From NCBI GenBank assembly GCA_030374765.1, contig JARGXX010000121.1, forward strand, positions 248,001-312,000: 64,000 bases of DNA. Direction: 5' to 3'. The number at the start of each line of letters is the position of its first letter. Position 1 is the stretch's first letter. Under the pieces are notes generated by a model that saw only the letters and a list, made by a program, of their open reading frames with translations, ran no database searches and was not told where the DNA came from. The stretch is from Agarophyton chilense. Its lineage: Eukaryota > Rhodophyta > Florideophyceae > Gracilariales > Gracilariaceae. Positions 17,640 through 48,291 of the stretch are shown here, piece after piece. A program made the position numbers and the translations under genes.

Positions 17640-19473
17640 AGTATCATCAAAGAGACGTGCGAGCACGCAGGTTCGCAAGAAGCTGCGCGCGATCACCCTC
17701 AACTTGGTCCACGGGAAAGCCTGCATCTAAGAGGAACTGCCTCAGCGAATCCAAGCCTGGATCTTCGACCGGCACTGCACTCGGTTGTTGGGTAAACCGA
17801 TGAAAGTTCTCTTGAGCAACTTTCGCCGCTGCGGATTGATCGAGGGAAGTCGCTACGCCTGCCAGCCCTGGCTCGTCCTCGTAACCGAGTTCAGCCTCAG
17901 CTCCCGGCGCTTGCTCATACGGTTCCTCTCCGTTCTCGGATGGAGTAGCATCCTACACGTATCCAGTAAGCAGGTTCGGTGGGATGTCACGCGGGTTCTC
18001 CCGAAGAAAGCGTGCCTGCTCGGAGGTGATCAACTGGCGCGTCCAGGGATCGTACCAAACGAAATATCCAGCATTTTCTGTTCGTCCAGGAGAATGGTCG
18101 TAGTGTCTTGCACGGGTTCCGCGAGCGGATTGATCAGCTGGAACTCCAGACCTATCGACACTGTCGATCAAATCCACAAGATGGAGGAAGTCGGCATGGT
18201 TCGCAAGGGATCCCAGGACAAGGGAAAGATCGAGTTCTCTCGCATACTTTCACGCTTTGGGCGACATGTACCAAACTCTAAAGGTATCATAAGCATCCCA
18301 CAAGAGAAAGACGGCCATCTTGGCGATAAACTAGGTGTAAACCACCCTTCAATATCCCGAGAACTGGTCGTTAACCAACGCGGACCTGATGTAGGAGGTC
18401 GCCGGTGAGAGCTCCACAAAGCAACCATGAGGACTCTCGATCGCCTCCCAATGCTCTGGAATACCGATGTAGCGCCCGAAGCGCGCGTTCCGCCAGATGC
18501 GGTCAATCTCGATCATTTGATACGGCACCAAATAGCCCAAACGTGATTGAGTACGACGTTCGCAACGGGGATAATCCCAATAGGGAATGTCACGCTTTCG
18601 AAGGAAGCGGAACTCCGCACGGAGAAGCGGTTGCTGAAAGCAGAGAGCTGCATCATGCACACCGCGCACACCGCACCAACCGCTAACATCGATTTCAACG
18701 AGTGTCTCGATATACGAGTAACCTTCACCGTCGGTACGGATTTTCCAGGTATCTAGTTCCCAGTCCTGCGGGAGGAGAACCCTACTGATGAATCCATGAG
18801 GACGCTTGTAAATCAGCTTGGTGAACCGCGTACGAGCTTTGGACAAGGTTTCCGTTGAATATCGCGCAATCGCGTTGTCTGGCAAAGCAATATGGCCCGC
18901 CCAGTCGTCGCTATAAATCGCGTCTTCCGGAATACCGTCAGGGAAGTACCCACCGTGTACATACTGTTGTATCAACGCGTCATTGTGGATAGCAACTGGG
19001 TCAAACCAGGGCGCTTCCGCGAAAAGTTCAACGTTGTCGAGAGGATCTCGTCCATAGAAATCCGCAGGGTGCGGGTAGCTCCGCTGAGCAAGACCAGAAG
19101 GAGCTCGAATCACACCCGCAGAGGCGACGTAAGCTACATTCGGCATCGGAGCCACGGTTGGCTGAGGTAACGGTACCGACCGGAATCCGGTGTACGGTGT
19201 GGGGAACGAACGGTAGGGACCGAGTTGAGCAGTAGGCTGCGACGCATAACAAGCAGTATTGGACGGAGCCCCAGAAGGCACATCCTCAGAGGAGGGCTGA
19301 AACGGGTTGGACCCAGCGTTCGGATTCATCGCGAGAGATTGAGCTGAAGAGCGATGAGGAACAGAATGCAGTTGAGAACTGTAAAAGTTTGTCGGGCGGC
19401 GAGGAATTCGTGATGACGATGAGTACCCGAAACACCGGTCCGACTGCTTGTAAACGCTTCTTGCGTCCCCCAT
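17640..19473 (-). pseudogene. Antisense accessory frame of E1 (family shared with E2, E3), broken
   Basis: This runs opposite to gag-pol and starts 24 bp inside the 3' LTR edge. The first 374 residues are open, and the recognisable protein continues to about 17.64 kb with breaks. Conserved blocks shared with the E2 and E3 proteins are APWFDP, LLRAEFRF, YLVPYQMIEIDR, FGRYIGIPEHWEAIE and GCFVELSP; later come a DPW...ITSEQA block and a C-terminal FLLDAG segment. The N-terminal ~100 residues are Ser/Pro/Gln rich. There is no signal peptide, membrane segment or known domain. The LTR beside it is unrelated in sequence to those of E2 and E3, so the shared protein is not just shared recent descent. 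Confidence 0.75.
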
Positions 19474-19485
19474 GGTTCGCGCTTA

Positions 19486-19496
19486 ACGAGGGGGTG
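19486..19496 (+). promoter_or_regulatory. Polypurine tract of E1
   Basis: AACGAGGGGGTG abuts the TGTAG start of the 3' LTR, the position of plus-strand priming. Confidence 0.65.
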
Positions 19497-20211
19497 TGTA
19501 GTATTCTACAATGTCGGGGAATCCGATGGGTCGGGTTTTCGCGAAGTCGCGGTTGGAACTCATGAGTGAGTGTTATCATCAGCATTGTGATATGAAGTGG
19601 CATTCCGCATAGGATGCCTAGAGGCAGAATGTCTTAGTGGAATACGTGGCGTCATGGGTCGAGTGGCTTACCACGGCGCGCGCATAGTTGCGACCCTTCT
19701 AGGGGAATGCCATATAGGCAACGGAGCATGTAGTGGCGATCCACGTGGAAGGCTTTACTACCCTTTGTAGCTAGACGTCCATTAGGGACCATACCCTTAC
19801 AGTGGTTTGGCTAAGTGGCTGCCCACTGGGTATTATTTATATATTTATTTTGGCACTCACCCTGGTACACAGTATATACTGTACCAGAGGTGAGCGCCGA
19901 CTCCAAGTAAAGGAGACAACATGGGCATCATGACTATTCTGTTCCTCACTTAGGATTACTCAACTGGAGATCCGGACGAGCTATAATAGATAGTCAGCCC
20001 CCAACCACTTCACGAGCCGTCTCGTACCTACGTTCCATCAACGTTTTACAGTTGCACTGTTCACCCTCGCTGGCGAGTAGTGGCCTTACACCCCACTTCC
20101 AGCTCGCTGGTGTTGTAGCTCTACCACCCCTTTTCCTTCGCCGCAAGCGATCCATTGGCAGTCCGAACGCTGTCGCAGGTGTCTGCTCTATCCGTTAGAG
20201 CGGATACTACA
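19497..20211 (+). repeat. 3' LTR of E1
   Basis: This 715-bp LTR is about 98.5% identical by eye to 10468-11182. It is followed by the target duplication CTGGT at 20212-20216. On the minus strand it carries an AT-rich AAATAAATATATAAAT run at about 19.83-19.85 kb, which could serve as a TATA for the antisense frame. Confidence 0.95.
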
Positions 20212-20894: not shown

Positions 20895-21604
20895 TTAATT
20901 TTCGTTGCCGTCTCCTTTCTTACGCAATGTAGACGTATCCTTCTTAAAATCCTTACGAAGTTTCACCGACCTGTCAAGCTTTCGATTCATCGAATCCCTT
21001 ATGAAATCGTCGTGCTCTTCTTCGAGTTCTCTTGCAGCTTCCCAGTTGCCAGTCTTCTCAATCATTGTCAGTGCCGCCAACATACGAATTGCCAACTCCA
21101 CCGCCAACTCATTCTTTGCGCTCATAGCGCCCAACGAGCTGATGAGACAGTCAATAACCCGAGCTAGTGTTGCAGCTTCCCGGCGGTTCCGAATGTCCAT
21201 CAAAGTACGAGCCTAAACCCACGCAGAGACCGTCTTTAAATTCGTCAGGGCCTTGCGGAGCATACCTTCCCCTCCAAAACTGTCAACCGAAAAAAGTTGT
21301 TCAGAAAACGGTTTGCCAGCGAAAGCAACCCAGAACTTATTGTTCGCCTTCTATCGCTTCGAATTCAAAGCCTTCTTCACGAGGCTCGAAATTCCCTCAT
21401 CTCCATCGTCGAACTCTGAGCCAGAGTCATTGCCGGAATCGACAACAACCCCTTCCATCGCCTTTTTGATGACTGCAAGAACATCTTACCTCTTTGTTTT
21501 ATTCTTTGAACTCTTCCGAGACTCCTTCAATTCCTTAATGTCTTTAGTAATGCGTTTCTGCATCTTTTCCAACCCCTCCATGAAAGAAAGAATATTTATT
21601 AATA
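20895..21604 (-). pseudogene. Decayed unrecognised reading region, target of the copia insertion
   Basis: On the minus strand a 102-residue open frame (20895-21203) is rich in Ala, Leu, Lys and Glu and looks helical (RVIDCLISSLGAMSAKNELA, TGNWEAARELEEEHDDF). Upstream, with several interruptions, readable sequence continues to about 21.58 kb with a Lys-rich coil (MEGLEKMQKRITKDIKELKE) and an acidic Ser/Asp/Gly stretch (DSGNDSGSEFDDGDEG). A matching acidic piece lies on the far side of the copia element at 49.64-49.75 kb. I do not recognise the family; it may be a decayed host gene or part of an older mobile element. Confidence 0.5.
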
Positions 21605-21891
21605 TGACGACCGGTCATAATTGAATGGCTTGGTAATTCTTGTTGTCGGGCTGCTTAATGATGCAACCTTCTGCTTGTCTTACTATTTTACATGGCACCC
21701 GTTTATGTCTCTCGGGTGCTGTAGTTTGTATCTCTATGCTTCGTATGTATTGTTGTTTGCTACTTAAGGTCTATCCGAGTCTTGATTGTAAAACCACGGG
21801 ATAACGCGCTCTCGTGCTTTTGTGTACTTTGTTCTACACCTTGTTTGTGTTATCGACGTGTATCGATTTCAGGTTACAGCCCAACTATTAT
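21605..21891 (+). repeat. 5' LTR of the copia-like element
   Basis: This about 287-bp LTR starts TGACGACCGGTCAT; its second copy is at 49357-49643. The 3' boundary is uncertain by a few bases because it does not end in CA. Confidence 0.85.
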
Positions 21892-21893
21892 TA

Positions 21894-24291: not shown

Positions 24292-24296
24292 CTGTC

Positions 24297-27294: not shown

Positions 27295-28089
27295 TGTAGT
27301 GCAACGCCAAGGGCGGCGGAAACACACGAAGATGTCCGAGTCTTCCTCCAAGGAGGGTAGCACGGCGACGGAGCCTCTCCGGAGTGAACACGACTAAGTC
27401 GGGGTGTAAGGCCGAGGTTCACCGGCACGCCAAGCGGGGAGAGTGCGGGATGCTAGAAGGGAGCAGACGAGGTATGAGCTGTATTCCACGGGAGTGGGCA
27501 AGAGATAAAAGGGGGGACCACCCAGTGGGGGCGATTGGTAACATGGGCCACGAGAGCCAAAAGAAATATGTAGCAAACCCAATACTGGGGCGAGAACACG
27601 GCAGTGGTATGAAAGATATACACGCTAACAGCGGTGAGTCTCCTGTTGACGCAGGGTGGATAAGTCTACCGTTAGTAACGCGGCTTCACCTCCGTAGAGT
27701 GTGGAAGACTCGCGAAAGCGGAAAAAGACTTAGAGCCAAGAACCCTGGTTGGGGAGGTTTACTGAGTGTCGGGGCGAGATCGCCCTGGCACTATATAGTG
27801 TAGAATACTGTAGAGAGCTCCCTAACCTAGTGTAATAAAGCTAAATAAATAGAGAAATATCCAGCTATGCTGTGCCAACCTGTCCTGGGCCACCCACGTT
27901 ACACGTGTGTCAGTCACACCCGAATCGGGGCCACGGCGCACGGCCGCCGTTGCACTTCGCGTCCAACTCGTATACACCTGGCTACGCCAGCCTACTAGTA
28001 GCAGTATTACTCATAGATCTCACAAGTATCGCCCGAGGCGGAAAAACAACCAAGTCCTGGAAAACGGCCCTCACGAGGGTTGCACTTCA
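27295..28089 (-). repeat. 3' LTR of E2
   Basis: This 795-bp LTR runs TGTAGTG...TTCA on the plus strand. The AT-rich run TAATAAAGCTAAATAAATAG at 27.83-27.85 kb lies about 270 bp before the antisense start and is a TATA candidate. Confidence 0.95.
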
Positions 28090-33200: not shown

Positions 33201-35938
33201 TCGTTCACCTCGAAAGGGAGTTGTGCACCGCCATTAAGCCAGGCGCGAATCTTCGTACAGAATTGGTCACCCTGCTGCTCTCTGACCATCTCCTCCGGGG
33301 GTATTGGCACAAAATCACCCGGCGGGGGTTTCTTTGAATCGTCCAAGACGAGCAATGCGTCAATATCATCGTCCGATTCCGGGCTCTCGTTCCATTTATC
33401 GTGTAACCAATCCGGGTTTCCCGGTGTTCCATCGTCTACGACGAAGCAAGGTATATCCTCGTCATCGACGGCTAGAGCTTTCCCATTCGTGGGTAAACGC
33501 GAGAGCGCGTCCGCTTGCGCGTTATGAGTGCCCTTCTTGTAGATCACTTCAAAGTCATATTCCGCGAGGCGGAGTCTCCGTAGGGACGAGTGATCCGTAT
33601 AAACGGTAAAGTGCACACCCATGAGGTAGAGGCGGAGTGTAGAAAGGGCCCACACAACTGCGAGGCACTCCTTCTCCGACACGGAGTAGTTCCGCTCGTG
33701 GACATTGAGCGAGCGTGACCAGTACCCAATGGGTGTGCGTTCTTCTTCGGGAGTAGTTTGAAAGAGCGCACAGCCTAACTGGTACTCGCTAGAGTCCGTG
33801 TCCACGGAAAACGGTAGTCCGGGTTTAGGTAGCGATAGAATCGGTGCTGATGTGACAGCCTCCCTAAGGGAGTTAAAAGCATCCGTCTGGGCGGACGTAA
33901 AGTGGTCCAGTTTAGGTGATTGCCCTTTCCGCAGAAGCGCGTTCAAGGGGGCCGCGATGTCAGCGAAGTTAGGGATAAACCGTCGGTAGACGTTGACCAA
34001 TCCTAGAAAGGAGCGCAGTTCCGTCTGGGTAGCGGGTTCTTTCGCCTTGCGAAGGGACCTCACTCGAGCTTCCTCGATCATTACACGTCCAGGACGGATA
34101 ATGTGCCCGAGATACTTCACAGTATCGGTAAAGAACTCACATTTCCTCAGTTTGAGGGTTATTCTAGCGTCACGTAGCGTGGTCATTATGTCCCTGACTT
34201 GGGTGAGATGGTCATTCAGATTGTCTGAGAATACAATGATATCGTCTAAATAGACGAGACAAGTACGCCACTTATAGCGGGCCAATAAAATGTCGATAGA
34301 ACGCTGAAAGGTAGCGGGAGCATTGGTTAGACCAAAAGGCATCCGTTTGAAACGGTAGAGTCCCGAGTGACAGACAAACGCAGTCTTATCTTGGTCCTCC
34401 TCCCTAACGGGAACCTGCCAATATCCCCAATTGCGGTCCAAAGCCGTGAACACGGTAGCAGTGCCGAGAGAGTCGATGTACTCATCCATTCGTGGGATCG
34501 GATACACGTCCTTGACAGTAACATAATTCAAGCGACGGTAGTCGATGCAAAAGCGCCAGGACGCATTGGGTTTCGGAGCCAGTTCAACTGGGGATGCCCA
34601 CGGCGACTGAGCCGGTTCGATCACTCCAGCTCGGAGCATTTTGTCCACTTGGAACTGTTCCTCTTCTCGAGCCTTGGAGCCTGCCCTGTAAGGGTGTTGA
34701 GCCACCGGTCGGGTGTTCGGCAATAAATCTATCCGGTGTTCTGTTGTATTTATCTCACCAAGAGAGCCATCCCACATTGTGGTAAACTCCCGTAACATCT
34801 CACGCAGACTTTCACGGTGTGACTCCGGTACATGACCGAGGTCGAGTTCCTCGAGTTTTTTAACGGGGTCTACCCGGCCGTAACTCGTCTGAAAGGGCTT
34901 CTTTTCAGTTTCGGCAGGTTGCGATTCCGAATCATTCGGTGATTGGACGGCAGCTTCCTCCCCCTCCTTAGAGTGAACGAGACCGAGGACTTCGGCAGCC
35001 GTCAGCCTAGTGGGGACCATCGCGGTGGGGTGAGGCATTACCGATCCAATAACTTGGTTTTTCACCAGTGACTGGGGGGTTGAGCCCAGATTGGCAACGA
35101 GCACGGTGAACGGCTTGTCTGGGACAATCTGCGCGACTCCATTCGCCACGGCGAGTTGATATCCATCGTACAGAGATAAGAGAGGCTGAATGACTCGTAA
35201 ACCGTGTTGACGGGAAGTGACACGCACCCATACTTAGGACTCTGGCGGGATTCGGACAGACGCAGCCACGCGGAGCTTGGTAGACTCCCGGGAAGCGGGT
35301 GGAGGTTCCTGCGCGGCAGGGAGCGGTACGTGCTTCTTGGAGGCATGCCGCAGCGGACGACGGACAATCGGGACCCACGAGCCGTCTTCCATCTCAACAC
35401 GCTTTAAGCGGGGCATTATGGCGTCAACGAATCTGTCACAGAAGTCACATCCCAAGATGATGGGGGCAGCCAATTTCCGGCACACAATAAAGTCGAGTTT
35501 CACCACGAAGGAGCCCAAGCGAACGACGAGAGCGACGGTTCCAACCGTTGACAACGGGTTGTTATTCGCGTCCGCGACGTCGGGCGCCACGACAAGGCGG
35601 ATCTGAGACCGCAAGGGCGGGGGCAGCAGCGACTCCACGATGAAATTCGGACCAGCACCTGTGTCCAAAACAGTAAGGGCTCGAACCATAAACTGGGTAG
35701 AAAGGCCAAAGTCGGCATACACCTTGTAATTGCGCTTGGCCATTACTAAGACTCTATCCGGTAACCGGCGGTTAAGAACACGTTTCCACGGTCGACGTAC
35801 AACACCAAAGTGTTCAGAGTCCACGTCTGAGACGGCCTGTTTCCTCGTGAGGATTGTGACCGGCGAGCGAGGCGGAGACGCCTCGGGCGTCGTCAACCTC
35901 ACTGTTGGGGAGGCCTCTCCCGAAGGGGAGACTCCCAA
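30242..35938 (-). pseudogene. pol region of E2 (PR, RT, RNase H, INT, chromodomain)
   Basis: The main open segment of about 1400 residues (31004-35227) holds RT (FCIDYRRLN, DRNWGYWQVPV, VYLDDIIVFS) and RNase H (DTDSSEYQLGC, YTDHSSLRRL). It also holds the integrase finger (LGGHAGGRKLY, CTECAKNRV) and core (FVAIDILG, LLSDNGKQF, YHPQCNGQVELFNR), then a long Pro/Ser/Thr-rich tail. Protease (LDTGAGPNF) lies at 35.2-35.9 kb. A chromodomain (YLVRWYGLGPEWDSDEP) lies at 30.3-30.45 kb. The region is not in one open frame. This copy has the most complete integrase in the window. Confidence 0.92.
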
Positions 35939-35940
35939 AA

Positions 35941-38070
35941 TCAGTTTTCATGAGTCTCATCCGCCTGGGGCGGGGCCTCAGAATCCTGAACCACTAGCAA
36001 TGGGGCGCCAGCGGCGGGATTTGAAGGAACGGAGCGGTGGTCGGAAGCCTGCTCGGCAGGGTAAAGCAACGCATTGCGCGGTTTCGCCTCCGGAATACTC
36101 CGTGGAAAATCGATCTTCGCTCGAAGATACGACGTCATCGGAACAATCCGCTTTTCCACTGGGGTCAACGCCTCATAATTACCGATTACTCGGGCTACTT
36201 CCCTCATGGTGAGGATACAGTCCGGTGAAATGTGACCGTGTTCGTAACATATGTGGCATATGAGTCCCGGGCGTGAGGGGTGCAAACCGGAGCGAGCATC
36301 CGTGAACTTCACCGCTTGGCGGGTATCCTTCCATACAGGTCGACTCTGTCGGAGCGCACCATTTGAATACGGGATGCAAGGTCCGTGAACATGGGGAGAG
36401 TCTGCGTACAGCAGGGCTTCATCCTGGGCCGTGTCATATGAGTCGCCCGTCGTAGACGGTAGTTCGGTTGTCGGGACCGAATGGATATCGCTTCGGGCGA
36501 AGTGTACGTTATCGTACTACTGTTGGGGGCGCTCACTCGCAATCAGCGATAAAGATGGCGACTTTTTTTCCATCACCAACGCCTTGGCGGTTGGCGACCT
36601 GTGTCCGGGGGCACGAGCTCTTAAAGCGTCACCTTCCGCTTGCGCGTGTTGGACCAACTCCAGATACATGGTTTTCCTTCGGTCTTCCCGGTAACGGGCC
36701 ACGAGTGTTCGGATAGCGGGGTTCAGTCCATCGATGAACATGGTGCAGCGCTCTCCGGCGGAGTGTACGTTCCCACTACGGTGGAAAGCCTTGTTCAGGC
36801 GCACCGAGAATTTGGTTTCCGTTTCTCCAGACTTCTGGCGCGTATCGCGAAGAGCGAGAATGGCCGACTGAATCGCTTGATTAGTGGCGTAGGACCTCAA
36901 GAGGTATTGTACTGCTTCTGGCCAGCAGGTTACCCCTCCTTCGGAGGCTCTAGACGAACCTCTTACAGAGTTGTATTGATCCTCGGCGAGGCCTTTCATA
37001 AAGTACGGGAGTGCAATAAACGCCTGTCCTTCGGTCATACCGAGAATATCCGCTTCGGCGACGAACCTCGCAAGGAAATCCAACACCAAAATGGGGTCTT
37101 CTCCAGAAAAGTTCTGATTCCTGAGGGACAGTTGCATACGATTTATGCAATCCTTCACTCTACCCGTGCCACGGGGCGTGCAATCCAAAGAGGAGTTCTC
37201 TAGCCGATAGTATCGGTAAGAAACCAACTTCTTGTACAGGGGGTTGGTGCATTTCAGCTCCTTCAACCCGGAGTGTTTCCTTCCCTTCTCGCGGGCGCGG
37301 ATCACACCTTGGGTGGCAGACGACCGTTTAGAACGGTAGGAACGCCTGCGATGGCCATCTTCAGAAGACGAATCTGACGAGTCCGACCCATTTGAATGGT
37401 GAGAGCCACGCAACGACCGTGAGGAGTTCGACGAGTCCGAGTCATCGCTGTCACGCTTTCCACGCCGACGGCGGGTATCGTCCCTTTTCCTCTCGTGTTT
37501 CGCTTTGTGCGACACAGCAACCGGCTTCTCCGGGACGTCTTCCATCAAGATGGTTTGCTCTAACGTCTGGAGACGGGCGCTAATACGATTGAATCGGGTC
37601 TCGACACCTTCCACGTAAGCGGCGGGACCACCAAAACATTCCAACAGGGTGTTGACGTCCGCCCGCAACAAGCGGAGTTCGTCAACCACTTCCTTCATAG
37701 AAGAGCCATCACACCTGGAACGCAGGGCTTCGAACTCTTCCACGAAGGCATTGTGCGCTTCCCGCATTACGCGGATCTGCTGCCTCACAGTTGAGTTGGT
37801 GTCGATGTGGAACTCGTTTTTCTGGGCCTTTTCGTCGGCAAGAGCCGGGTCATCCACGGCAGGGGCCGTTCCAGCACCAGAATTGGGTCCGTTCTTTGAC
37901 ACCTTAGGCGGTAGCTTGTTGTTCTTGGAGGAGTTCGACCCCTTACGCTTGCCTTTCGGAGCGGCTTGAGATAACGACGGGGGAACCCTTCCAGGGTCCG
38001 CAGGCACCACGTCATTGACGGAACGGCTCCGCGTGATCGCGGGTTCCGCTTCCGACGGTGGTCGTGACAT
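35941..38070 (-). pseudogene. gag region of E2
   Basis: The likely start MSRPPSEAEP is at 38070, about 140 nt from the primer binding site. The N-terminal part is Ser/Lys rich, followed by a coiled-coil-like region, then a Ser/Asp-rich basic tract with RRSYRSKRSS. A capsid-like domain (PILVLDFLARFVAEAD, WPEAVQYLLRSYATN, FIDGLNPAIRTLVARY) precedes a CHICYEHGHISPDC knuckle (CX2CX4HX4C) near 36.25 kb. Gag spans more than one frame. Confidence 0.88.
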
Positions 38071-38209
38071 GGTTGTAGCGTTGACCACTAAGAATAGGAC
38101 AACAAAAGCTTCCACCAAGTGGGTCCAAACCAAGAAATTGGAAAGCAGATCTTGACGAGAAAAGACAGCACAGCAATGTGAAAAACAACCAAACCAGGTC
38201 CGCTTAGCC

Positions 38210-38227: not shown

Positions 38228-38230
38228 GTT

Positions 38231-39025
38231 TGTAGTGCAACGCCAAGGGCGGCGGAAACACACGAAGATGTCCGAGTCTTCCTCCAAGGAGGGTAGCACG
38301 GCGACGGAGCCTCTCCGGAGTGAACACGACTAAGTCGGGGTGTAAGGCCGAGGTTCACCGGCACGCCAAGCGGGGAGAGTGCGGGATGCTAGAAGGGAGC
38401 AGACGAGGTATGAGCTGTATTCCACGGGAGTGGGCAAGAGATAAAAGGGGGGACCACCCAGTGGGGGCGATTGGGAACATGGGCCACGAGAGCCAAAAGA
38501 AATATGTAGCAAACCCAATACTGGGGCGAGAACACGGCAGTGGTATGAAAGATATACACGCTAACAGCGGTGAGTCTCCTGTTGACGCAGGGTGGATAAT
38601 TCTACCGTTAGTAACGCGGCTTCACCTCCGTAGAGTGTGGAAGACTCGCGAAAGCGGAAAAAGACTTAGAGCCAAGAACCCTGGTTGGGGAGGTTTACTG
38701 AGTGTCGGGGCGAGATCGCCCTGGCACTATATAGTGTAGAATACTGTAGAGAGCTCCCTAACCTAGTGTAATAAAGCTAAATAAATAGAGAAATATCCAG
38801 CTATGCTGTGCCAACCTGTCCTGGGCCACCCACGTTACACGTGTGTCAGTCACACCCGAATCGGGGCCACGGCGCACGGCCGCCGGTGCACTTCGCGTCA
38901 AACGCGTATACACCTGGCTACGCCATCCCACTAGTAGCGGTATTAATCATAGATCTCACAAGTATCGCCCGAGGCGGAAAAACAACCAAGTCCTGAAAAA
39001 CGGCCCTCACGAGGGTTTCATTTCA
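38231..39025 (-). repeat. 5' LTR of E2
   Basis: This 795-bp partner of 27295-28089 is followed by the target duplication TCGAT. Confidence 0.95.
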
Positions 39026-39122: not shown

Positions 39123-39986
39123 TGAAGAGCAACGTCCTCCAGGGAGGTTTTTGGGGACTTAAGTTTTTTCCGGAGCCTCCGGCGTGCAACCTCGTTATGA
39201 GTAGGAGTAGTCCGCTTTCACGGCGACACCCGGAACGCCGGTGATGCACCGGCGGGACCGGGTGCCATACACGTGGCCGCAGCGCCCGCGCGACACGTGG
39301 CCGCCAGATTGGCCCCTTTTGTGAGACCGACATTTAGCTATTTAGGATAGATTTTATTTATTGTATTCTACGGTGACTACAGTACTTAGGCCGCCGGCCT
39401 CGCGGCCGCCGGTCCAGTAAAGTCTCCCCAACAAGGGTGATCTTGGTCTTCCAGATCTTGGCTCTGGGTCGAACCGCCTGCGCGGATTTACAACTCCTTA
39501 CGGAGGGATTTCCTGTGGTGCACGGCTTCCCAACCCCCTTGGACGTTCAAGCAGCCTTCGTGTGTTGGGTATCTATTCCCACTTTCGTGATTCCGCCCGT
39601 GTATACGGTTTGCTACACCCGGCAGTGCTGGCTATTCCCGAGTCCTCTCTTGCGACTCGTGGTCAACCTCGCCCTCTTGCCTCCGTTCCCATTTCCTTCC
39701 CATTTCCTCCCCTTCATTGGGTAATTCCCGCTCTTGCGGCTCGCACTGACACCTGTCGTGCTCGCCACTCTCGTGGGTTTTGCCTCCTCAGAGGAAACGC
39801 AAGCACCACTTCAGCGGACATTCTCGGCTTCTTTCAGCCTCCCTGCGCCCGTCGCGACGGTTCGGCTCCGGCTTACACCCGGCATTGCGCGCCGATCCCT
39901 GGAAGGGCTCTACTGCGCCGGTTACCTCGTGAGAGGAAGATCCGGACGTCTTCGTGGGTTTTCCCCCTTGGGGGCATTGTCCTACA
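39123..39986 (+). repeat. 5' LTR of E3
   Basis: This 864-bp LTR starts TGAAGAGC and ends CCTACA. It is dense in short perfect stems such as CTCCTTACGGAG, CCTCGTGAGAGG and CCGTCGCGACGG. A TATTTATTGTATTC stretch near 39.35 kb is a possible TATA region. Confidence 0.95.
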
Positions 39987-39989
39987 AAT

Positions 39990-40007
39990 TGGTCTCCCGA
40001 CTTAGAA
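39990..40007 (+). promoter_or_regulatory. Primer binding site of E3
   Basis: TGGTCTCCCGACTTAGAA lies 3 nt after the LTR. It is the complement of an 18-nt tRNA 3' end of which the tRNA is not identified. Confidence 0.8.
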
Positions 40008-40109
40008 GTCAAGACCGCTTGTGTCCTCTCTGAGTTTGTTTTCCGTTTAACGGGTTTTCTCCGGTCTCACCGATTTGCTTTCTATTCTTCCGTCGAGACG
40101 GCGTGGCCA

Positions 40110-42188
40110 ATGCCAAGGAAACCGCCTAGAATGGAGCCTCCTGCAACACGCAGCCGTTTTCGCCAAAGCGGTGATGCCAGGGGCACTGATGTTCGACAGG
40201 CCCTGGCTCCAACACCGGCTTCCCGGGAGATACCGGTCACCGGCACTGAAGACCCGCAGCCCGATTCCGGGTTAACGACCGTCGCAACGGTGGTTTCTCC
40301 GCCTCCGCGGTTGGTCGACCAAGCGCGGGTTGTACGCTTGGAAGAGCAGCTCCGCTCCCTGCGGGCTGCTCACAATACCCTCTCGAGGGAATTCACCTCT
40401 TTACGAGGAAGCCTCGCTAACCCCCCTACGAGTGAGTTAGCCGATGATATCCGCGTATTGCGGTCGGACGTCAATACACTACTCGAGTGTTTTCGCGCTC
40501 CGTCTTCCTTCGCAGAAGGTATGGAGAATCGCTTCGAGCGTCTCCGAAGCCGACTTGAGTCGGTCGAGAGGACGTTAACCTCGCCCGCGAACGCGGCTAG
40601 ACCGGTTGTCTCTCATCGAGAGACCCAGTCGCGGAACCGGAAGAGCCGGAAGAACCGGGATTCTAACCGTAAGCACGAACCCCCGTCCCACTCATCATCT
40701 GAGTCGGACGGTAAACCGAGTGACTCGGAGAGTTCCGATTCGTCGGTGAGCGATGACCCACAGGATCGTTATGGGCGCTTATCCCACTCAAAGCGGTCCT
40801 CTGTCACCTACGGGGCCATCCGGTCGCGCCCCAAGGGTCGGCGACATTCGGGCCTCAAACCCTTGAAGCCCACCAACCCTCTGTACAGGACACTCCTGTC
40901 CTACCGGTATTACCGGCTAGAAGATTCCTCTTTAGGTCGGACACCACGTGACACGGGTAAAGTGAAAGACTGCATCAAGCGGATGCAGCTTTCACTTCGT
41001 AACCAGTCGTTTACTGGGGATGATCCAATTCTGGTCTTGGATTTCCTACACCGCTTTGTAGCGGAAGACGTGGCGCTACCCTACTTTCTACGGGGTGTCG
41101 CTGAAGATCAGTTTTTGTCGGTTCGGGGCTCGTCGCGAGCCTCCGAAGGAGGTGTGACCTGCTGGCCCGAGGCCGTGCAGTACCTCCTGCGTTCCTACGC
41201 AACCAACTCCGCGATACAAGCGGCAATACTCGCTTTGCGAGACACTCGACAACGCTCCGGCGAGCTCGAGACCGATTACTCGGTACGCCTGAATAAGGCT
41301 TTCCACCGTTGTGGTAATGTATACCCCGCTGGGGAACGCTGTACGATGTTCATTGATGGCTTGGATCCAGCCATCAAGACTCTTGTCGCCCGTTACAGGG
41401 AACAAGAGCCGAAGGTGACCTACCTTGAACTCGTACAGTTTGCCCGCGCAGAGAGAGATGCACTACGTGCACGCAATCCGGGAACCCGGTCGAAGGCCGC
41501 TAAAGCATTGCTGCTTGAGTCGGACTCTTCTTCACCGTCATTTGCGACGGATGGCATCCCCAAACAGGGTTATGACAATATGAATGTCATCCATCACGAT
41601 GGTTTATCTATTCCGACAACGGAATTACCGTCTACGACGGATGGCTCGGTTGACTCAACCGCAAAAGACACGGAGAACGGGCAGGTCTTCTATCTTAATG
41701 ACCGCCGCACTCCGGCCCCCCGTATGCCGTACTCAAACGGTATGACACGAAGTCAGCGCCCTGGATGGGTTGGAAACCGGGAACCCGGAAGATACACCGA
41801 TGCTCGGAATGCCGTACCGCGAAACGCGGGAGTGACGTTGGTGTGCCACTTGTGCTACGAGTGCGGGCACACCTCCCCGCAATGCCTTTTATCGCTACGC
41901 GATATGGCGCGAGTGGTGGATAATTACGAAGCCCTCTCCCCGCAGGAGAAGGGCTCCGTGCCACTCACGTCATATCTCCGCGCGAAGACGGACTTCCCCA
42001 ACGCATTGGCTCACACTCCGAATTCTCGGTACAAACCGGCTCAGCCGGCACGCGCCGCACCAGCGCCAAACCACGCTGGTGGATCTCAACCCGCTCCTGC
42101 GGTAGCTACCGTGCAACGGAATCATGCACTCGTTGCCGAGGAAGTCGGGCCTTCGCCCGACCAGGACCCTGTACAGGGAAAAGAATAG
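40110..42188 (+). CDS. Gag of E3
   Basis: From the ATG at 40110 about 692 residues are open; the same frame is open farther upstream into the LTR, but MPRKPPRMEPP fits the start of E2 gag. Order is a Ser/Pro/Arg-rich head, a predicted coil (ARVVRLEEQLRSLRAAHNTL), and a Ser/Asp/Arg linker (SSSESDGKPSDSESSDSSVS). A capsid-like domain (WPEAVQYLLRSYATN, RLNKAFHRCGNVYPA, FIDGLDPAIKTLVARY) precedes the knuckle CHLCYECGHTSPQC near 41.85 kb. The pol frame is open across the gag stop in a different phase, so pol expression by ribosomal frameshifting, known in Ty3/gypsy elements, is plausible. Confidence 0.9.
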   Translation: MPRKPPRMEPPATRSRFRQSGDARGTDVRQALAPTPASREIPVTGTEDPQPDSGLTTVATVVSPPPRLVDQARVVRLEEQLRSLRAAHNTLSREFTSLRGSLANPPTSELADDIRVLRSDVNTLLECFRAPSSFAEGMENRFERLRSRLESVERTLTSPANAARPVVSHRETQSRNRKSRKNRDSNRKHEPPSHSSSESDGKPSDSESSDSSVSDDPQDRYGRLSHSKRSSVTYGAIRSRPKGRRHSGLKPLKPTNPLYRTLLSYRYYRLEDSSLGRTPRDTGKVKDCIKRMQLSLRNQSFTGDDPILVLDFLHRFVAEDVALPYFLRGVAEDQFLSVRGSSRASEGGVTCWPEAVQYLLRSYATNSAIQAAILALRDTRQRSGELETDYSVRLNKAFHRCGNVYPAGERCTMFIDGLDPAIKTLVARYREQEPKVTYLELVQFARAERDALRARNPGTRSKAAKALLLESDSSSPSFATDGIPKQGYDNMNVIHHDGLSIPTTELPSTTDGSVDSTAKDTENGQVFYLNDRRTPAPRMPYSNGMTRSQRPGWVGNREPGRYTDARNAVPRNAGVTLVCHLCYECGHTSPQCLLSLRDMARVVDNYEALSPQEKGSVPLTSYLRAKTDFPNALAHTPNSRYKPAQPARAAPAPNHAGGSQPAPAVATVQRNHALVAEEVGPSPDQDPVQGKE

Positions 42189-42250
42189 AGGGAGTCTCTC
42201 CTTCGGGAGAGGCGTCCTCAGAGTTGAGGCTGACAACGCCCGAGGCGCCG

Positions 42251-45200
42251 ATGCCTCGCTCCCCGGTGAAAATTCTGACAAGGAAGGACACCGCAGACGC
42301 GGACTCTAAACACCTCGGTGTGTTGCGTCGACCGTGGATACGGATTAGAAATAACCGGATCCCGGATAGAGTCTTGGTAATGGCCAAGCATAACTACAAG
42401 GTTTACGCTGACCTTGGTCTGCACACGCAGTTTATGGTGAGACATCTCACTGTCCTGGATACAGGTGCTGGGCCGAACTTTATTGTGGAATCGGTTTTAC
42501 CCCCGCCATTGCGGTCACTCATCCGTTCTGAAACGGTACCCGACGTGTCGGACGCCAATAACAACCCGTTGAAAACGGCTGGTGTGATCGACCTGGTCGT
42601 CAGGCTAGGGCGGATGGTGGTTAAACTAACTTTTATTGTGGGCCGCTCGCTGGCCGCGCCAGTTATACTGGGTGGTGACTACTGCGACAGGTTTGTCGAC
42701 GCCATCCGCCCACGCCTTAAGCAGGTGGAACTTGAGGACGGATCGACCGTCCCCATTGTTCGTCAACCGCTGAAGCGGGCATCGAGGAAACACGTTCCTC
42801 TACCTGCTGCGCAGAAACCCACACCGGCGAACCGGGAGTCTACGAAGCTACGCGTTGCCTCGTCAGTAACCATACCCCCGGAGAGCCAGGTTATGGTTTC
42901 AGTCAATTCCCGTCAACACGGTCTTCGGGTTGTTCAGCCCTTGCCCTCGTTGTACGAGAAATTTCAGCTAACCGTTGCAAACGGAATCGTGCAAGTCACG
43001 CCGAATTCCCCTTTCAGGGTGTTGGTTGCCAACCTGGGGAAGGCTCCCCAGACGCTGGCAAAGAACCAAGTCATTGGGTCTGTGACGCCGCACCCGCTCG
43101 CGATGCTCCCTACAAAGGTGACGGCTGCCGAAGTACTCGGGATAACTCCCTCTACCGAGGATGGTCTCTCGGTATCCGGTGCAGAAACCTCCGGGGAGGC
43201 ACAGCAGTTGGCGCTCGATAAAACCGTCAAGACGGATGCATTTCCGACCTCGTCGGTTCCCAGACCTGACACCAGGTCACAGCCTACGAGCTACGATAAG
43301 ATAGATCCGATCAAGGCCCTCGAGTACCTGGGCCTGAGTCATGTACCGGTCTCACACCGGGACAGCTTACGCGGAATGCTACACGAGTTTACCACAATGT
43401 GGGACGGCTCACTGGGTGAGATCAATACAACCGAACATCGGATAGACTTGCTACCGGACGCACGTCCGGTTGCACAACCCCCTTACAGGGCGGGACCGAA
43501 AGCTCGGGAGGAGGAAGAATTTCAGGTGGACAAGATGCTCCGTGCTGGAGTCATCGAGCCCGCCCAATCTACTTGGGCTTCACCGGTGGTGCTGGCCCTC
43601 AAGGCTGACGGCACGTGGCGGTTTTGCGTTGACTACCGCCGCCTCAATGCCGTCACCGTGAGGGACACCTACCCGATTCCGCGCATGGACGAGTGTATAG
43701 ACTCGCTCGGGGACGCTACCGTGTTTACGGCTCTGGATGCTAACTGGGGCTACTGGAAAGTCCCAGTCCGGGAAGAGGACCGAGACAAAACCACGTTTGT
43801 TTGCCACTCGGGTTCCTACCGCTTCAAGCGGATGCCGTTTGGTTTAACCAATGCACCGGCCACCTTTCAAAGGGCAATAGACATACTGATGTCGCGTTTC
43901 AAGTGGCGCACGTGCCTTGTCTACTTGGACGACATCATTGTCTTTTCCAGAAACCTGGACGATCACCTGACCCACGTGCGGGACGTGATGACCGTACTGC
44001 GAGACGCAGGAATAACCCTCAAGTTGAGGAAGTGCGAGTTCTTCACCGACACGGTGAAGTATCTCGGGCACGTCATCCGTCCAGGACGGTTAATGATCGA
44101 ACAAGTTCCTATCAAGTCCCTCTGTGAGGCGAAGGAGCCCCGTACTCAAACAGAGCTCCGATTCTTTTTAGGTCTGGTCAACGTCTATCGACGGTTTATA
44201 CCGAGTTTCTCGGATATCGCCGCTCCGCTAAACGCGCTACTGCGGAAGGGCCAGCCACAAAAGCTTGCGTCATTTACCACCGATCAGTCGGAATCTTTTC
44301 GCTCCTTGATTAAGGCAGTTACGACAGCTCCCATCCTATCCTTGCCCAAACCTGCGCTTCTCTACTCCATCGACACCGACGCCAGCGACCACCAGCTGGG
44401 CTGCTCACTGTTCCAAACCACCCCCGAGGGGGAACGCAAACCAATTGGCTATTGGTCCCGCACGCTGAACGTCCACGAGCGCAACTACTCGGTCTCCGAG
44501 AAGGAGTGCCTCGCAGTGGCCTGGGCGCTATCCACTCTGCGCCCATACCTCATGGGCGTTCATTTCACCGTGCACACGGACCATGCCTCGTTGAGGTGGC
44601 TGCTGAACATCGCAGATCCTTCTGGCCACTTAATGCGGTGGCGCCTCCGCTTAGCGGAATTCGACTTCGAGGTCGTCTACAAGAAGGGTGTCCAGAACAC
44701 CCAAGCAGACGCTCTCTCTCGATTACCTACGACAGGTGAAGCACTTGCCGACCCGGTGGTCGACGAGATGCCGTGCTTTACCTTGGAAAGGGAAACACCG
44801 ACGGAGTCGGATTGGCCCGAAACCGGGGAAGACACCATGGAAATGGATGAGCTACTCGCAGCGCGCGAGAATGAAACACCCGTACCCGTGGCACCATGGC
44901 TTAGAAGCCCCGCCGTGGTACCGCACCCCTCACGAGGTCTCTCCGATATACCGACTTTATCGGAACCACCGGCAATGCCGGAAACACCTGGCCCTCGCGG
45001 CCAGCTATCCTTACGGGCGCCGCACAGCGGTATTTATACCCGCCATGCGGTTAGCCCACCATCATCCGTCGCTCCGTCTAAGGAGGGGGAGGGGATCCGC
45101 TCAATCGCGGAAGCATCGCCGTCGCAACGGAAGTTTAACCGGACACCCCGGGCAAGGCCCCCGAGCGGGCATCCGGCATCGTCGCCGGACGTTACTCCGC

Positions 45201-46183
45201 TCCCGCGGGATGCGGCGGTCAATCCGACCGCCACGCAACCCCGAAAGGGGAACCGAGGCGCTCGAAGACCCGAAGCCGGGAAGCGAGACCCTACGGTCGC
45301 TCCGCATCGCATGGAAGCAACTAAGGGCTCCCCGCACATTCGCGGTCGCACACCGAGCGTTTCGGTCGATACCGGTACTCCGGCGGGCGCTGCGCAAGCA
45401 GGTCTAGCGAGCCACTCCGTTGAGAAGGGTACGAACCCCATGGGGGAAAAGGGGCGCGACAACAAGTCGAAAACCGCCTCCCTTGCCGAACAATTGGAGC
45501 CAACCGTCCGCGACAGCCCGACCACCCGTCCTCAAGGTCACGGGACCCGGGCGGAAGATCGGACCAATGGGCACCCGGCATCCCGGTCATTGGCTGACAG
45601 TCACCCCGCGGAGGCGGACCGCCGGGACGGTGAACCACTCACCGCCCGCGGCGCACTGCACGGCGGAAACTGCCCACCAATGGGAACGCTGCATGCCGCA
45701 AATCAAGCGGAGGCCTCCGGCGAAGCGTCACCAAGACGGAAGGATCCCCGCAAACTCGCGGTAAGAGCGGACTTCAGGGAAGCCCCTACCGCCCAGCGGG
45801 AACACAACCCGGCCGCGCCGGCAACTTCCGCGAAGCGGTACGGCAGCCCCGGCAACCCGGCAACAACCGCAGAGCGGAATGACAAACCGGGTGACCCGGA
45901 ACATGCGACGACGAGCCCAGCACTACGCGGCGCTGAGGCTCGGGTCACCACCACCCGGCAAGGCCGGCAAGTTTACGTGCAGGAGTACGTCCTCGACCGA
46001 ATCGTCGGACATAGCTACGATGGGCACGGGGTGCTCCAGTACCAGACCCGCTGGTACGGATACGGGCCGGAGTGGGACACCCCGGAGCCCATCGAGCACC
46101 TCCCGCGCTCTGCGGTAATGCGATACCACCGCCTTGCGGGGACCGCACTCCCAGCCACGCTGGTAAACGCCCAAGAGGGATAA
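42251..46183 (+). CDS. Pol of E3 (PR, RT, RNase H, chromodomain)
   Basis: About 1310 residues are open. Protease (VLDTGAGPNFIVES) is near 42.46 kb. RT (43.5-44.1 kb) has FCVDYRRLNAV, LDANWGYWKVPV and VYLDDIIVFS. RNase H (44.35-44.7 kb) has IDTDASDHQLGC, SEKECLAVAWAL and HTDHASLRWLL. A Pro/Thr/Arg/Gly-rich, low-complexity region of about 400 residues follows. The C-terminal chromodomain (46.0-46.13 kb) has YQTRWYGYGPEWDTPEPIEHLP. The integrase zinc finger and catalytic core seen in E2 are not recognised here, so the copy is probably not self-sufficient, although its frame looks intact. Confidence 0.9.
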   Translation: MPRSPVKILTRKDTADADSKHLGVLRRPWIRIRNNRIPDRVLVMAKHNYKVYADLGLHTQFMVRHLTVLDTGAGPNFIVESVLPPPLRSLIRSETVPDVSDANNNPLKTAGVIDLVVRLGRMVVKLTFIVGRSLAAPVILGGDYCDRFVDAIRPRLKQVELEDGSTVPIVRQPLKRASRKHVPLPAAQKPTPANRESTKLRVASSVTIPPESQVMVSVNSRQHGLRVVQPLPSLYEKFQLTVANGIVQVTPNSPFRVLVANLGKAPQTLAKNQVIGSVTPHPLAMLPTKVTAAEVLGITPSTEDGLSVSGAETSGEAQQLALDKTVKTDAFPTSSVPRPDTRSQPTSYDKIDPIKALEYLGLSHVPVSHRDSLRGMLHEFTTMWDGSLGEINTTEHRIDLLPDARPVAQPPYRAGPKAREEEEFQVDKMLRAGVIEPAQSTWASPVVLALKADGTWRFCVDYRRLNAVTVRDTYPIPRMDECIDSLGDATVFTALDANWGYWKVPVREEDRDKTTFVCHSGSYRFKRMPFGLTNAPATFQRAIDILMSRFKWRTCLVYLDDIIVFSRNLDDHLTHVRDVMTVLRDAGITLKLRKCEFFTDTVKYLGHVIRPGRLMIEQVPIKSLCEAKEPRTQTELRFFLGLVNVYRRFIPSFSDIAAPLNALLRKGQPQKLASFTTDQSESFRSLIKAVTTAPILSLPKPALLYSIDTDASDHQLGCSLFQTTPEGERKPIGYWSRTLNVHERNYSVSEKECLAVAWALSTLRPYLMGVHFTVHTDHASLRWLLNIADPSGHLMRWRLRLAEFDFEVVYKKGVQNTQADALSRLPTTGEALADPVVDEMPCFTLERETPTESDWPETGEDTMEMDELLAARENETPVPVAPWLRSPAVVPHPSRGLSDIPTLSEPPAMPETPGPRGQLSLRAPHSGIYTRHAVSPPSSVAPSKEGEGIRSIAEASPSQRKFNRTPRARPPSGHPASSPDVTPLPRDAAVNPTATQPRKGNRGARRPEAGKRDPTVAPHRMEATKGSPHIRGRTPSVSVDTGTPAGAAQAGLASHSVEKGTNPMGEKGRDNKSKTASLAEQLEPTVRDSPTTRPQGHGTRAEDRTNGHPASRSLADSHPAEADRRDGEPLTARGALHGGNCPPMGTLHAANQAEASGEASPRRKDPRKLAVRADFREAPTAQREHNPAAPATSAKRYGSPGNPATTAERNDKPGDPEHATTSPALRGAEARVTTTRQGRQVYVQEYVLDRIVGHSYDGHGVLQYQTRWYGYGPEWDTPEPIEHLPRSAVMRYHRLAGTALPATLVNAQEG

Positions 46184-46515
46184 ACCGTGAACACGGAATG
46201 GAATGGCTGATGGCGCCACGCGCCATCTCCGTCCATGCCCCAACGCGGGGAAGGAAGCAACCGCTCACGCTATCCCAACCTCGTTCGTGGTCGTGCCAGT
46301 TACCTGGTCCGCGCGCGAAGCGCCCACCGTTAAACACGGGACTCCCAGCTAGGCTGGTTCCCTGCAACGCTGGAGCCCCGGTTGAAGGCCGGTACCCCGG
46401 AAAGAAAGAAGTGGACTTGGGAAAGAGCGTCGGAAAGGCGACCCTCTTCTTTTGTTTCTCACTACTGGCAAGGGCGCCTTAGGGGCGCCGCCCTAAATTC
46501 TACCGGAAGCTCCGG
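46184..46515. other. Spacer between convergent pol and antisense frame of E3
   Basis: This is about 330 bp between two convergent frames. It contains GC-rich short stems and no gene. A termination region for one or both transcripts would be expected here, but no clear signal is visible. Confidence 0.5.
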
Positions 46516-48291
46516 TCATTCCTCCGCACGAGGTGGACCCCCGCCCAGGCGGTTGGCTAAGGTATCCCGCATGGCGGCCACATCACCCGAGATCTCGGAA
46601 GGGCGAAGCCCCACCTCCCGAAGGAAGCGCGCGATGACCTCGCCCCGCTCCGCGCCAGCGACGGTTGCGGGCGGGCCCGCCACCGATGGAGTCGGATAGG
46701 AATCCGTTCGCACGGCATCAGCAGCCCCGGATGGAGCCGCACCACCGTATTCAACGGACTCCTCACCGGCCTCGCCGGACCCGTCATCCTCCATCGGAGC
46801 GTAACCCGGATCCTCCGCTTCGTTGTCGACCATCGGGTCACCATCTGCATAGTCGCGGTAATAGTCCCTCGAGTCGACATACCCTCGCGGGTGGTCGGCC
46901 GGGACTTCACGCAGCGCATGCCGGTTGGCTTCCGATTCCTCGCGGCTGATCTCGTGGTACTCCCAGGGGTCGAAGTAGACGAAATCCCCCGCTAGCGCGG
47001 TATTCCTCCCGAGTCCGGGGCCAGACCCGCGACGCGGTTGAATGCGTTGGGAGTTCTCCAGCGGGACCTCATCCCACTGGACCCCCTCCACAAAGTCGAG
47101 GAGGCCCAGAATCTCTTCTTCGTTCGCCTCGCCCCCGAGGGGGATGCGCATGTCCAAACGACGGATCGCAGCCCGCACACGCGGTGGCACGTACCACAAT
47201 CGGTATTGGTCGTACGCCTCAGCGAGGATAAAAGCCGTAGTGCGGACGGCCCATTCGCTTACCACGACGGACCACCACCCCGACTGGGGATCTTTCAAGA
47301 ACGACGACCCTACATAGGTGAATACTGGGGGCAGCTCAACGAAGCAACCCCAGCACGCCTCCAAGGAGGACCACCAGTCTGGGAGACTGACGTACCGACC
47401 ACGTCGGTGAGCAGGCGCGATGCGCTCAATCTCCGTGTTCTGGTACGGTAGGAAATACCCGGTCCGGGCCCGCCAACGCCGCTCATCGCGGATGAAGTTC
47501 TGAAGGAAGTTCGAGCGCGACTGCCGCGGTTGGTAGCGGAACTCTGCCCGAAGAATCGGTCGTGCCCAGCAAAGGGCTTCTTGCCGAGCGATCGGTGTGC
47601 CCCTCCAAGCGAGGGTTTCCAATCCGTTAAGACGGTCACAGTACGACATTTCCCGGCGAGTGCGGTAAAGGTGGACGTCGAATTCGATCCCTGGCGGTAT
47701 CGGGAACTCGAAAGGCGCCCGATGGTGCCTGAGATAAGCGATCCGCACAAGCGCGGCCTGAGCCTCCGCAGAGGATTCACCGCGTCGGCAGAGTATGTGG
47801 TGTACCGGGATGGCGATACGATTACGCCAATCCCAGGACAGGGTCACCACGCCGGGCAGGTCGCCCGGGAGCATCTCCGAGTTATCGGTGTAGGAGTAGA
47901 TCAAATCCTCGTCGCGGCCAGCCAATGGGTGAAACCAAGGCGCATACCGCAACCTCGCGGAGCCATGCCGAGTTCTCGGATTCGCACCCACAAGGGCGTC
48001 GTAGGTCGGCCACTGCGGTAGGTCCGCCTGTCCGCGAAAGCGGGCGCCAATACGGCGGTCTTCGTACGTGAGGTTGGTAATATCCCCAGGGTGGGGCGCA
48101 GACCGGAAACCGGTGGAACCGCCAAGGGCAGGAGTCGCGGATGTGTTATGACGGTCGGGGTTGGACATGGTGCGTGTTGGTGTGCTGTTGTTGGAATCGG
48201 ATGCGGGGAGCGTGCGTGGGATCCTTGGTGAAGGTGTGTTGGTTTCCGGAGACCCGGTGTCGGACGCGCTCTTATCATGACGAGCTGCCAT
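46516..48291 (-). CDS. Antisense accessory protein of E3, unknown function
   Basis: From the ATG at 48291 (48 bp from the 3' LTR edge) 591 residues are open. The frame also continues open into the LTR for 58 codons. Conserved blocks, numbered from this ATG, are YAPWFHPLAG (116-125), ILRAEFRY (246-253), YFLPYQNTEIER (279-290), RRGRYVSLPDWWSSLE (296-311), GCFVELPPVFTY (315-326), SVVVSEWAVR (341-350), YDQYRLWYVPPR (360-371) and FVYFDPWEYHEIS (437-449). A DPMVDNE acidic block and a C-terminal FLREVGL...SGDVAAMRD segment follow. All match E2 in order. The head is Ser/Thr/Pro/Asn rich. There is no known domain, signal peptide or membrane segment. Confidence 0.78.
   Translation of the reverse strand: MAARHDKSASDTGSPETNTPSPRIPRTLPASDSNNSTPTRTMSNPDRHNTSATPALGGSTGFRSAPHPGDITNLTYEDRRIGARFRGQADLPQWPTYDALVGANPRTRHGSARLRYAPWFHPLAGRDEDLIYSYTDNSEMLPGDLPGVVTLSWDWRNRIAIPVHHILCRRGESSAEAQAALVRIAYLRHHRAPFEFPIPPGIEFDVHLYRTRREMSYCDRLNGLETLAWRGTPIARQEALCWARPILRAEFRYQPRQSRSNFLQNFIRDERRWRARTGYFLPYQNTEIERIAPAHRRGRYVSLPDWWSSLEACWGCFVELPPVFTYVGSSFLKDPQSGWWSVVVSEWAVRTTAFILAEAYDQYRLWYVPPRVRAAIRRLDMRIPLGGEANEEEILGLLDFVEGVQWDEVPLENSQRIQPRRGSGPGLGRNTALAGDFVYFDPWEYHEISREESEANRHALREVPADHPRGYVDSRDYYRDYADGDPMVDNEAEDPGYAPMEDDGSGEAGEESVEYGGAAPSGAADAVRTDSYPTPSVAGPPATVAGAERGEVIARFLREVGLRPSEISGDVAAMRDTLANRLGGGPPRAEE

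Follow-up and report, generated by a model that had tools for sequence, protein, structure and literature searches.

Introduction

Open reading frames running antisense to gag and pol are known from several long terminal repeat (LTR) retrotransposons of plants, for instance Retand, whose antisense protein belongs to Transposase_28 (PF04195), Grande with its gene23, RIRE2 and PvRetro13 (PMC7264820 and PMC11963269). Grande gene23 is reported to have its own promoter and to encode a nuclear protein (PMC7264820). When plant Ty3/gypsy elements are considered as a whole, their extra frames, which may run with or against gag-pol, sort into 314 dissimilar groups and are typical of OTA non-chromoviruses, and algae yielded no non-chromoviruses, as far as the accessible sections of PMC6317226 go. 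Here, we describe an antisense gene in gypsy elements of a red alga. A stretch of 64,000 nucleotides from Agarophyton chilense (assembly GCA_030374765.1, contig JARGXX010000121.1, positions 248,001 to 312,000 of the forward strand), hereafter the window, includes the gypsy elements E1 (10468-20211), E2 (27295-39025, minus strand) and E3 (39123-49202), all with TG..CA LTRs, and on its left side a further gypsy element, E0 (~1-10 kb, minus strand). An initial annotation, made without database searches, had proposed that E1, E2 and E3 encode a conserved protein family opposite to gag-pol, at a position analogous to that of the antisense frames documented in plant Tat/Retand elements (PMC7264820 and PMC11963269), and this interpretation is, overall, supported by the analysis of the window and of the 79.8 Mb genome (135 contigs) in which further copies were searched.

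An antisense gene between pol and the 3' LTR

In E1, E2 and E3, the presence of a long antisense frame on the stretch from pol to the 3' LTR is confirmed, and it is far above chance. The frames and coordinates first proposed are right, and the starts given as 24, 36 and 48 bp from the LTR edge correspond to 23 bp (E1), 35 bp (E2) and 47 bp (E3) between that edge and the antisense ATG. The distance from the antisense stop to the pol stop amounts to 179 bp in E2, 210 bp in E1 and 332 bp in E3, and the stop of a remnant in E0 lies 160 bp from the E0 pol stop; since the pol stop faces the antisense stop, the two genes are convergent. The frame is indeed open in E2 and E3 and homologous in E1, although the E1 copy of the window has four internal stops. 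Intact E1-type frames of 608 aa occur elsewhere in the genome (L039, L040 and L041), as do full-length E0 copies of 818-875 aa (L068-L070 among them).

All eight E2-type copies fetched from the genome start with ATG and stop with TGA. Among the 30 E3-type copies, 25 are without internal stop, 29 start with ATG (the match in L013 begins at residue 2) and all 30 stop with TGA. At each of these 38 loci, the pol end is found antisense downstream of the frame and LTR sequence in its upstream flank, the odd LTR matches being those of L019 (reversed), L025 (~200 bp farther away) and L032 (only ~240 bp long). Two details of the initial annotation stand in part. The shared motifs EWAVR and YDQYRLW are present in E2 and E3, but E1-type copies differ there; likewise, the LTRs of E2 and E3, described as unrelated, are strongly diverged but share three short collinear blocks, 80-83% identical (E 8e-6 to 1e-3), and similar termini.

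Coding conservation and selection

When codon alignments with one copy each of E1-E3 and of a fourth family, E4, are considered, the antisense frame is free of stops, while the remaining five contain 5-29 each. In 6/6 family pairs, conservation is lowest at codon position 3; the E2-E3 identities by codon position are 0.62, 0.67 and 0.40, and the order is alike in the other five pairs. For E2-E3, nonsynonymous divergence (dN) is 0.47 and synonymous divergence (dS) is saturated at ~2.1. Between families, these comparisons show that the antisense frame encodes a protein under purifying selection, in agreement with the claim that the protein has been kept for a long time.

Copies of the same family differ little, and most of the differences arose after insertion. 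The ratio of nonsynonymous to synonymous polymorphism (pN/pS) in E3, calculated for the 27 of 30 copies of equal length, is 0.52 in the true frame. Shifting the frame on the same strand gives 0.97 and 1.28, and reading the opposite strand gives 0.92, 0.60 and 1.11; the E3 core yields 0.44 and the pol C-terminus 0.73 (30 copies). E3 variants confined to a single copy comprise 231 nonsynonymous and 127 synonymous changes with 9 stops among 367, and those found in at least two copies comprise 61 and 43, respectively, with no stop among 104, the neutral expectation under the observed transition bias being 2.42 nonsynonymous changes per synonymous one and 3.2% stops. In E2, the core yields 0.56 and the pol C-terminus 0.65, and ratios from few copies are 0.51-0.87 for E1, 0.52 for E4 and 0.54-0.59 for E0. 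A dN/dS near 1, named at the outset as a sign against a conserved gene, is thus not found between E2 and E3, where it is clearly below 1, and E3 falls below most control frames, whereas the eight E2 copies are indistinguishable from neutral drift; selection within families is visible in E3 and leaves no clear signal in E2.

Families and relatives

The antisense proteins of E2 and E3 are 48-50% identical (48% over 604 columns, BLASTP E 6e-172), and the E1 frame shares 31-36% identity with both. The E4 family (618 aa) was found by searching the genome with protein P0004 of Gracilariopsis chorda, which gave at least 77 matches, with L042 and L043 read. The E0 remnant as a query gave at least 151 matches, the longest frame reaching 876 aa; the genome match numbers (68, 74, 110, 77 and 151) are all lower bounds. 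Full-length E0 proteins (L068-L070) match E1-E4-type proteins with best BLASTP E values of 1e-12, 1e-14 and 6e-10, and E0 aligns to E1-E4-type profiles with an hhalign probability of 96.7 (E 4.5e-10, 218 columns). Judged by sequence similarity, the gene is therefore carried not by three elements only, as initially assumed, but by at least five families, namely E1, E2, E3, E4 and, in diverged form, E0, whose remnant lies in the same window. The identity of their reverse transcriptase (RT)-RNase H regions is 77.6% for E2-E3, 73.6% for E3-E4, 70.9% for E2-E4, 61 and 75% (by piece) for E1-E3, 60 and 60% for E1-E2, 54.9% for E0-E3 and 49.7% for E0-E2.

In a tree of the core, built from 16 of 22 alignment rows (the short P0007-P0009, P0011, P0013 and P0014 being left out), E2 groups with E3, E4 with P0005 and E1 with P0006, the last pair being flagged as long branches meeting, and E0 stands apart; some branches are long, four forks are open and the midpoint root serves for drawing only. 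The relatives from G. chorda are scattered over different parts of this tree. One of them, P0002, clusters with E3 and not with E2, so that, if inheritance is vertical, the split between E2 and E3 predates that between Gracilariopsis and the host. The search for relatives that had been suggested, in which ~8,000 candidates sharing most words were scored each time, returned G. chorda, Gracilaria domingensis and A. chilense as the only named sources among the matches listed, none of them beyond red algae, and neither GTDB genomes nor IMG/VR, each scanned once with the E3 protein, gave a confirmed relative.

Three A. chilense fragments, P0010-P0012, share 85-92% identity with the E4 protein. These are unnamed NCBI proteins with source sequences of 806-2243 bases, which may be transcripts. 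As a separate observation, two sets of E3-type frames with identical scores show an exact spacing, of 9,197 bp in one region (three frames, G000:C68:3138181-3158347) and of 9,249 bp in another (two frames, G000:C77:295889-306910), as expected for tandem elements with common LTRs.

Domains, fold and N-terminal motif

From a structural point of view, the protein can be divided into three parts: an N-terminal tail, which carries a conserved GFRSxPxP-type motif, a folded core of ~380 aa, and a tail at the C-terminus that is acidic in E1-E4. The motif is found in E0, E1, E2 and E3 and is degenerate in E4; when the E0 tail was shuffled 20,000 times, only 5 of the resulting sequences contained it. 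That no domain could be recognised in the protein is borne out by Pfam and NCBIfam, which reveal none in the antisense proteins, and by a PDB sequence search, which finds no relative. Structure prediction and a fold search, as proposed, gave a confident AlphaFold model of the E3 core, residues 90-473 (predicted local distance difference test score 82.7, predicted template modelling score 0.84), and no Foldseek match to it in PDB or BFVD at E <= 0.001. The best 19-residue hydropathy is 0.93-1.54 in E1-E4, where no clear membrane helix is seen, and a borderline 2.04 in E0; no signal peptide is apparent by eye. Taken with the antisense orientation, the low hydropathy of E1-E4 and the lack of a visible signal peptide set the gene apart from env-like genes. 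Descent from gag was also considered and rejected (hhalign probability 0.2 against gag).

Retention in the E3 family and loss of the integrase

The universality of the gene was tested in the E3 family, for which 145 pol sites are listed, four partial rows being excluded. While 67 of the 145 pair with one of 74 listed antisense frames, 20 sites drawn at random from the other 78 all hold sequence homologous to the frame (20/20), as one or two pieces that need not be intact, so that the frame, as anticipated, is present in other copies of the family. Conversely, seven of the 74 frames are without a paired pol site in the list, one of them lying beside the excluded partial rows.

The E3 copy of the window has lost its integrase through an in-frame deletion of ~415-430 codons, with RT, RNase H and chromodomain kept, and other E3 copies retain the integrase (L071). 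A listed E3-type integrase is present within 1.5 kb upstream of 86/145 pol sites and absent from 59/145, and it therefore seems that a non-autonomous derivative has been amplified. Among these 59 sites, 43 were examined (37 by listing and 6 by sampling), and the antisense frame or homologous sequence is present in 43/43. The antisense pN/pS is 0.54 in integrase-less copies (15 copies) and 0.50 in integrase-bearing ones (12 copies). Since the integrase is lost and the antisense gene is never seen to be lost, the former seems to be suppliable in trans.

What the antisense gene may do

The explanation that we favour, tentatively and at slightly less than even confidence, is that of a third gene of a red-algal gypsy clade, inherited with the elements and giving rise, by way of an antisense transcript, to a putative intracellular accessory protein. 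Most simply, the gene would already have been part of the elements when the five families diverged and would have been passed on with them. A promoter in the 3' LTR or in the short leader would produce a separate mRNA, convergent with that of gag-pol, and the protein would remain inside the cell, most likely as a non-enzymatic adaptor or regulator, whose N-terminal motif and core may bind a partner from the element or the host. In this way, it would aid the element's own expression or replication, as proposed for the antisense proteins of plant Grande and Retand. A more far-reaching version is somewhat less probable: a three-gene lineage of red-algal chromodomain gypsy elements would keep the antisense gene as permanently as gag and pol, with a fold unlike solved or viral structures, an origin independent of plant and retroviral antisense genes, and a docking motif for a partner that is indispensable even to copies without their own integrase.

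It is nevertheless important to stress the points that weigh against this explanation. Both the antisense transcript and the protein are predicted from the DNA sequence, and a nuclear location of the latter could be proposed by analogy only. No antisense TATA box stands at a fixed common place in the LTR antisense strands of E1, E2 and E3, TATA(A/T)A being present in those of E1 and E2 and not in that of E3. As regards selection, one opposite-strand frame of E3 (0.60) comes close to the true frame, and the true frame of E2 (8 copies) has a pN/pS of 0.76, while the five remaining frames range from 0.63 to 1.31 and one of these falls below it, so that recent selection in E2 is not demonstrated. 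The copies fetched were those most similar to the window, a choice that favours intact copies, and the retention of the gene in integrase-less copies may reflect only the youth of the deletion. Furthermore, the C-terminal tail of E0 is basic and its core only ~24% identical, and the function may therefore differ in E0. Finally, the pattern of the N-terminal motif was defined after the sequences had been viewed.

The main rival, which we regard as unlikely, is an anti-silencing or anti-defence factor that releases the element from silencing by host chromatin or small RNAs, similar to VANC, the anti-silencing factor of the Arabidopsis VANDAL transposons. Such a factor would act in trans, so that many copies could rely on a single expressed one; the elements have spread to hundreds of copies, and a separate transcript would permit expression while gag-pol is silent. 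The proteins of E2 and E3 also evolve faster (~50% identity versus 78% in RT-RNase H), as host-facing proteins do; however, gag diverges at about the same pace (58% identical between E2 and E3), and speed alone is therefore no sign of anti-silencing. Moreover, no domain ties the antisense protein to chromatin or RNA, and a factor acting in trans would not need to be retained in every E3 copy examined. That same gag-like pace would suit a structural, particle or envelope-like component, and retroviral env occupies the same place between pol and the 3' LTR. Such a component is nonetheless improbable, given the orientation opposite to env, the lack of similarity to a gag profile, the core model without structural match, and hydropathy and N-termini that show neither a clear transmembrane helix in E1-E4 (E0 being borderline) nor, by eye, a signal peptide.

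The two further alternatives concern the gene rather than the role of its protein. A passenger recently captured from the host or from another mobile element, as occurs in plant elements (PMC7264820), would fit the lack of relatives outside red-algal sequence among the matches listed. We consider it very improbable because five families, with RT-RNase H regions 50-78% identical, all have the gene at one and the same site, so that any capture must be old, and because its position and orientation relative to pol are constant in 38/38 loci read; the recent host-gene fragment weighed in the initial annotation is disfavoured on the same grounds. Even less credible is an active antisense RNA forming double-stranded RNA with the gag-pol RNA, the open frame being incidental. 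Two transcripts would indeed converge, and antisense regulation of retrotransposons is discussed in PMC7264820, but neither the codon-level conservation among E1-E4 nor the frame pattern in E3 is explained by an RNA function, and no Rfam family is found in the window. The third gene with an accessory protein remains the explanation that we prefer.

Host elements and neighbouring features

E1, E2 and E3 are Ty3/gypsy LTR retrotransposons, as seen from their LTR pairs, target site duplications (TSDs) of 5 bp, a primer-binding site motif common to the three (TGGTCTNCCGACTTAG, at 11185, 38227 and 39990), a purine tract beside the 3' LTR and Pfam domains (Table 1). Their LTR pairs are 98-99% identical, with 12/721 mismatches in E1 (where the ends compared overran by 6-7 bp), 12/795 in E2 and 9/864 in E3, and because of these few differences all three are regarded as young. 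The full Ty3/gypsy domain set is detected by Pfam in E2 only, the integrases of E3 and E1 in the window being damaged: E1 pol matches RT, integrase zinc finger and chromodomain, and its C-terminal frame (16249-17436) has no Pfam match to the integrase core. The chromodomain (PF00385), which had been ascribed to the host elements, is matched at E 1.1e-6 in E1, 5.7e-4 in E3 and 4.9e-3 in E2, of which only E1 passes the Pfam cut-off; the window copy of E0 has no Pfam match to it. Judged by the chromodomain alone, these elements class as chromodomain (chromovirus-like) gypsy elements.

Table 1. Features of the antisense genes and their host elements in the window
Feature	Position	Strand	Remarks
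E2 antisense gene, 645 aa	28125..30062	+	No internal stop; opposite to E2 gag-pol (-)
E3 antisense gene, 591 aa	46516..48291	-	Open; opposite to E3 gag-pol (+)
E1 antisense gene, pseudogene in window copy	17647..19473	-	Internal stops at codons 375, 381, 408, 507; terminal stop 609
E0 antisense gene, C-terminal remnant	519..1148	+	209 codons + stop
E3 protein conserved core, residues 90-473	46873..48024	-	AlphaFold
E1 5' LTR (TG..CA)	10468..11182	+	TSD CTGGT
E1 3' LTR	19497..20211	+	
E2 3' LTR	27295..28089	-	TSD TCGAT
E2 5' LTR	38231..39025	-	
E3 5' LTR	39123..39986	+	TSD AATCT
E3 3' LTR	48339..49202	+	Putative antisense promoter here or in the 47-bp leader
E2 pol C-terminal frame	30242..30949	-	Chromodomain below Pfam cut-off
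E2 pol: RT, RNase H, integrase zinc finger and core	31004..35227	-	Pfam
E2 gag	36517..38133	-	Retrotrans_gag E 3.9e-4, slightly under Pfam cut-off
E3 gag	39954..42188	+	58% identical to E2 gag
E3 pol: RT, RNase H, sub-cut-off chromodomain	42224..46183	+	Pfam; integrase deleted in frame
E1 pol C-terminal frame: integrase zinc finger, chromodomain	16249..17436	+	Pfam
E0 pol fragments: RT (similarity to E3), RNase H end, integrase zinc finger, C-terminal frame	1309..5295	-	

Another LTR element, by eye maybe copia-like, lies at 21597-49645, with frames at 22023-27360 and LTR-like repeats at 21597-21893 and 49349-49645 that are 97% identical; it is apparently split by both E2 and E3, which are 97 bp apart. 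Among host genes, one at 52230-54617 (minus strand) shows glycosyltransferase 7C/2-type matches in its N-terminal half, one of them above the Pfam cut-off, and a sub-threshold fucosyltransferase (XG_FTase/NodZ) match in its C-terminal half, and is perhaps a two-domain glycosyltransferase. A second, at the window edge (61359-63992, 877 open codons), encodes an XRN-family exoribonuclease (XRN_M, E 7e-121). Scans of the window revealed no Rfam RNA family and no tRNA.

Comparison with known systems

Deltaretroviral antisense genes, such as HBZ of human T-cell leukaemia virus type 1 (HTLV-1), and ASP of human immunodeficiency virus (HIV) resemble the model proposed here, their antisense transcript having its start within or close to the 3' LTR and encoding a regulatory protein. 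HBZ, however, is a bZIP protein, and bZIP has no match in Pfam scans of the antisense proteins described here; furthermore, both HBZ and HIV ASP overlap sense genes, whereas the antisense gene of the red-algal elements has its own stretch. The HTLV antisense promoter is placed in or near the 3' LTR in PMC7264820.

Among plant elements, Retand is a non-chromovirus of flowering plants, in contrast to the red-algal chromodomain elements, and PF04195, the family of its antisense protein, has no match, nor has the plant mobile domain, in 18 antisense proteins (E1-E4, E0 and P0001-P0009) at E limits of 1, 10 or 5. Tat elements in general are non-chromoviruses with an archaeal-type RNase H, from which the elements found here are set apart by their chromodomain. 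In contrast to the 314 groups of plant extra frames (PMC6317226, sections mentioned above), one protein family extends here across five element families. Outside plants, a frame running antisense at the corresponding site, from pol to the 3' LTR, is known in Boty of Botrytis cinerea (PMC7264820), which is a fungal element. No description of an antisense frame in red-algal retrotransposons was found among the titles and abstract beginnings listed from the literature searched, subscription journals being mostly outside it. The arrangement is thus already known, from plants and one fungal element, and what differs is the protein, its red-algal chromodomain host elements and its presence as a single family across five.

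Antisense genes of LTR elements have been puzzling, as the plant proteins are heterogeneous and maybe passengers. With one protein across five families, strong coding conservation and a confident model without structural match, the gene described here offers a clean case in which the function of such antisense genes can be approached, and a red-algal lineage joins the plant, fungal and retroviral cases.

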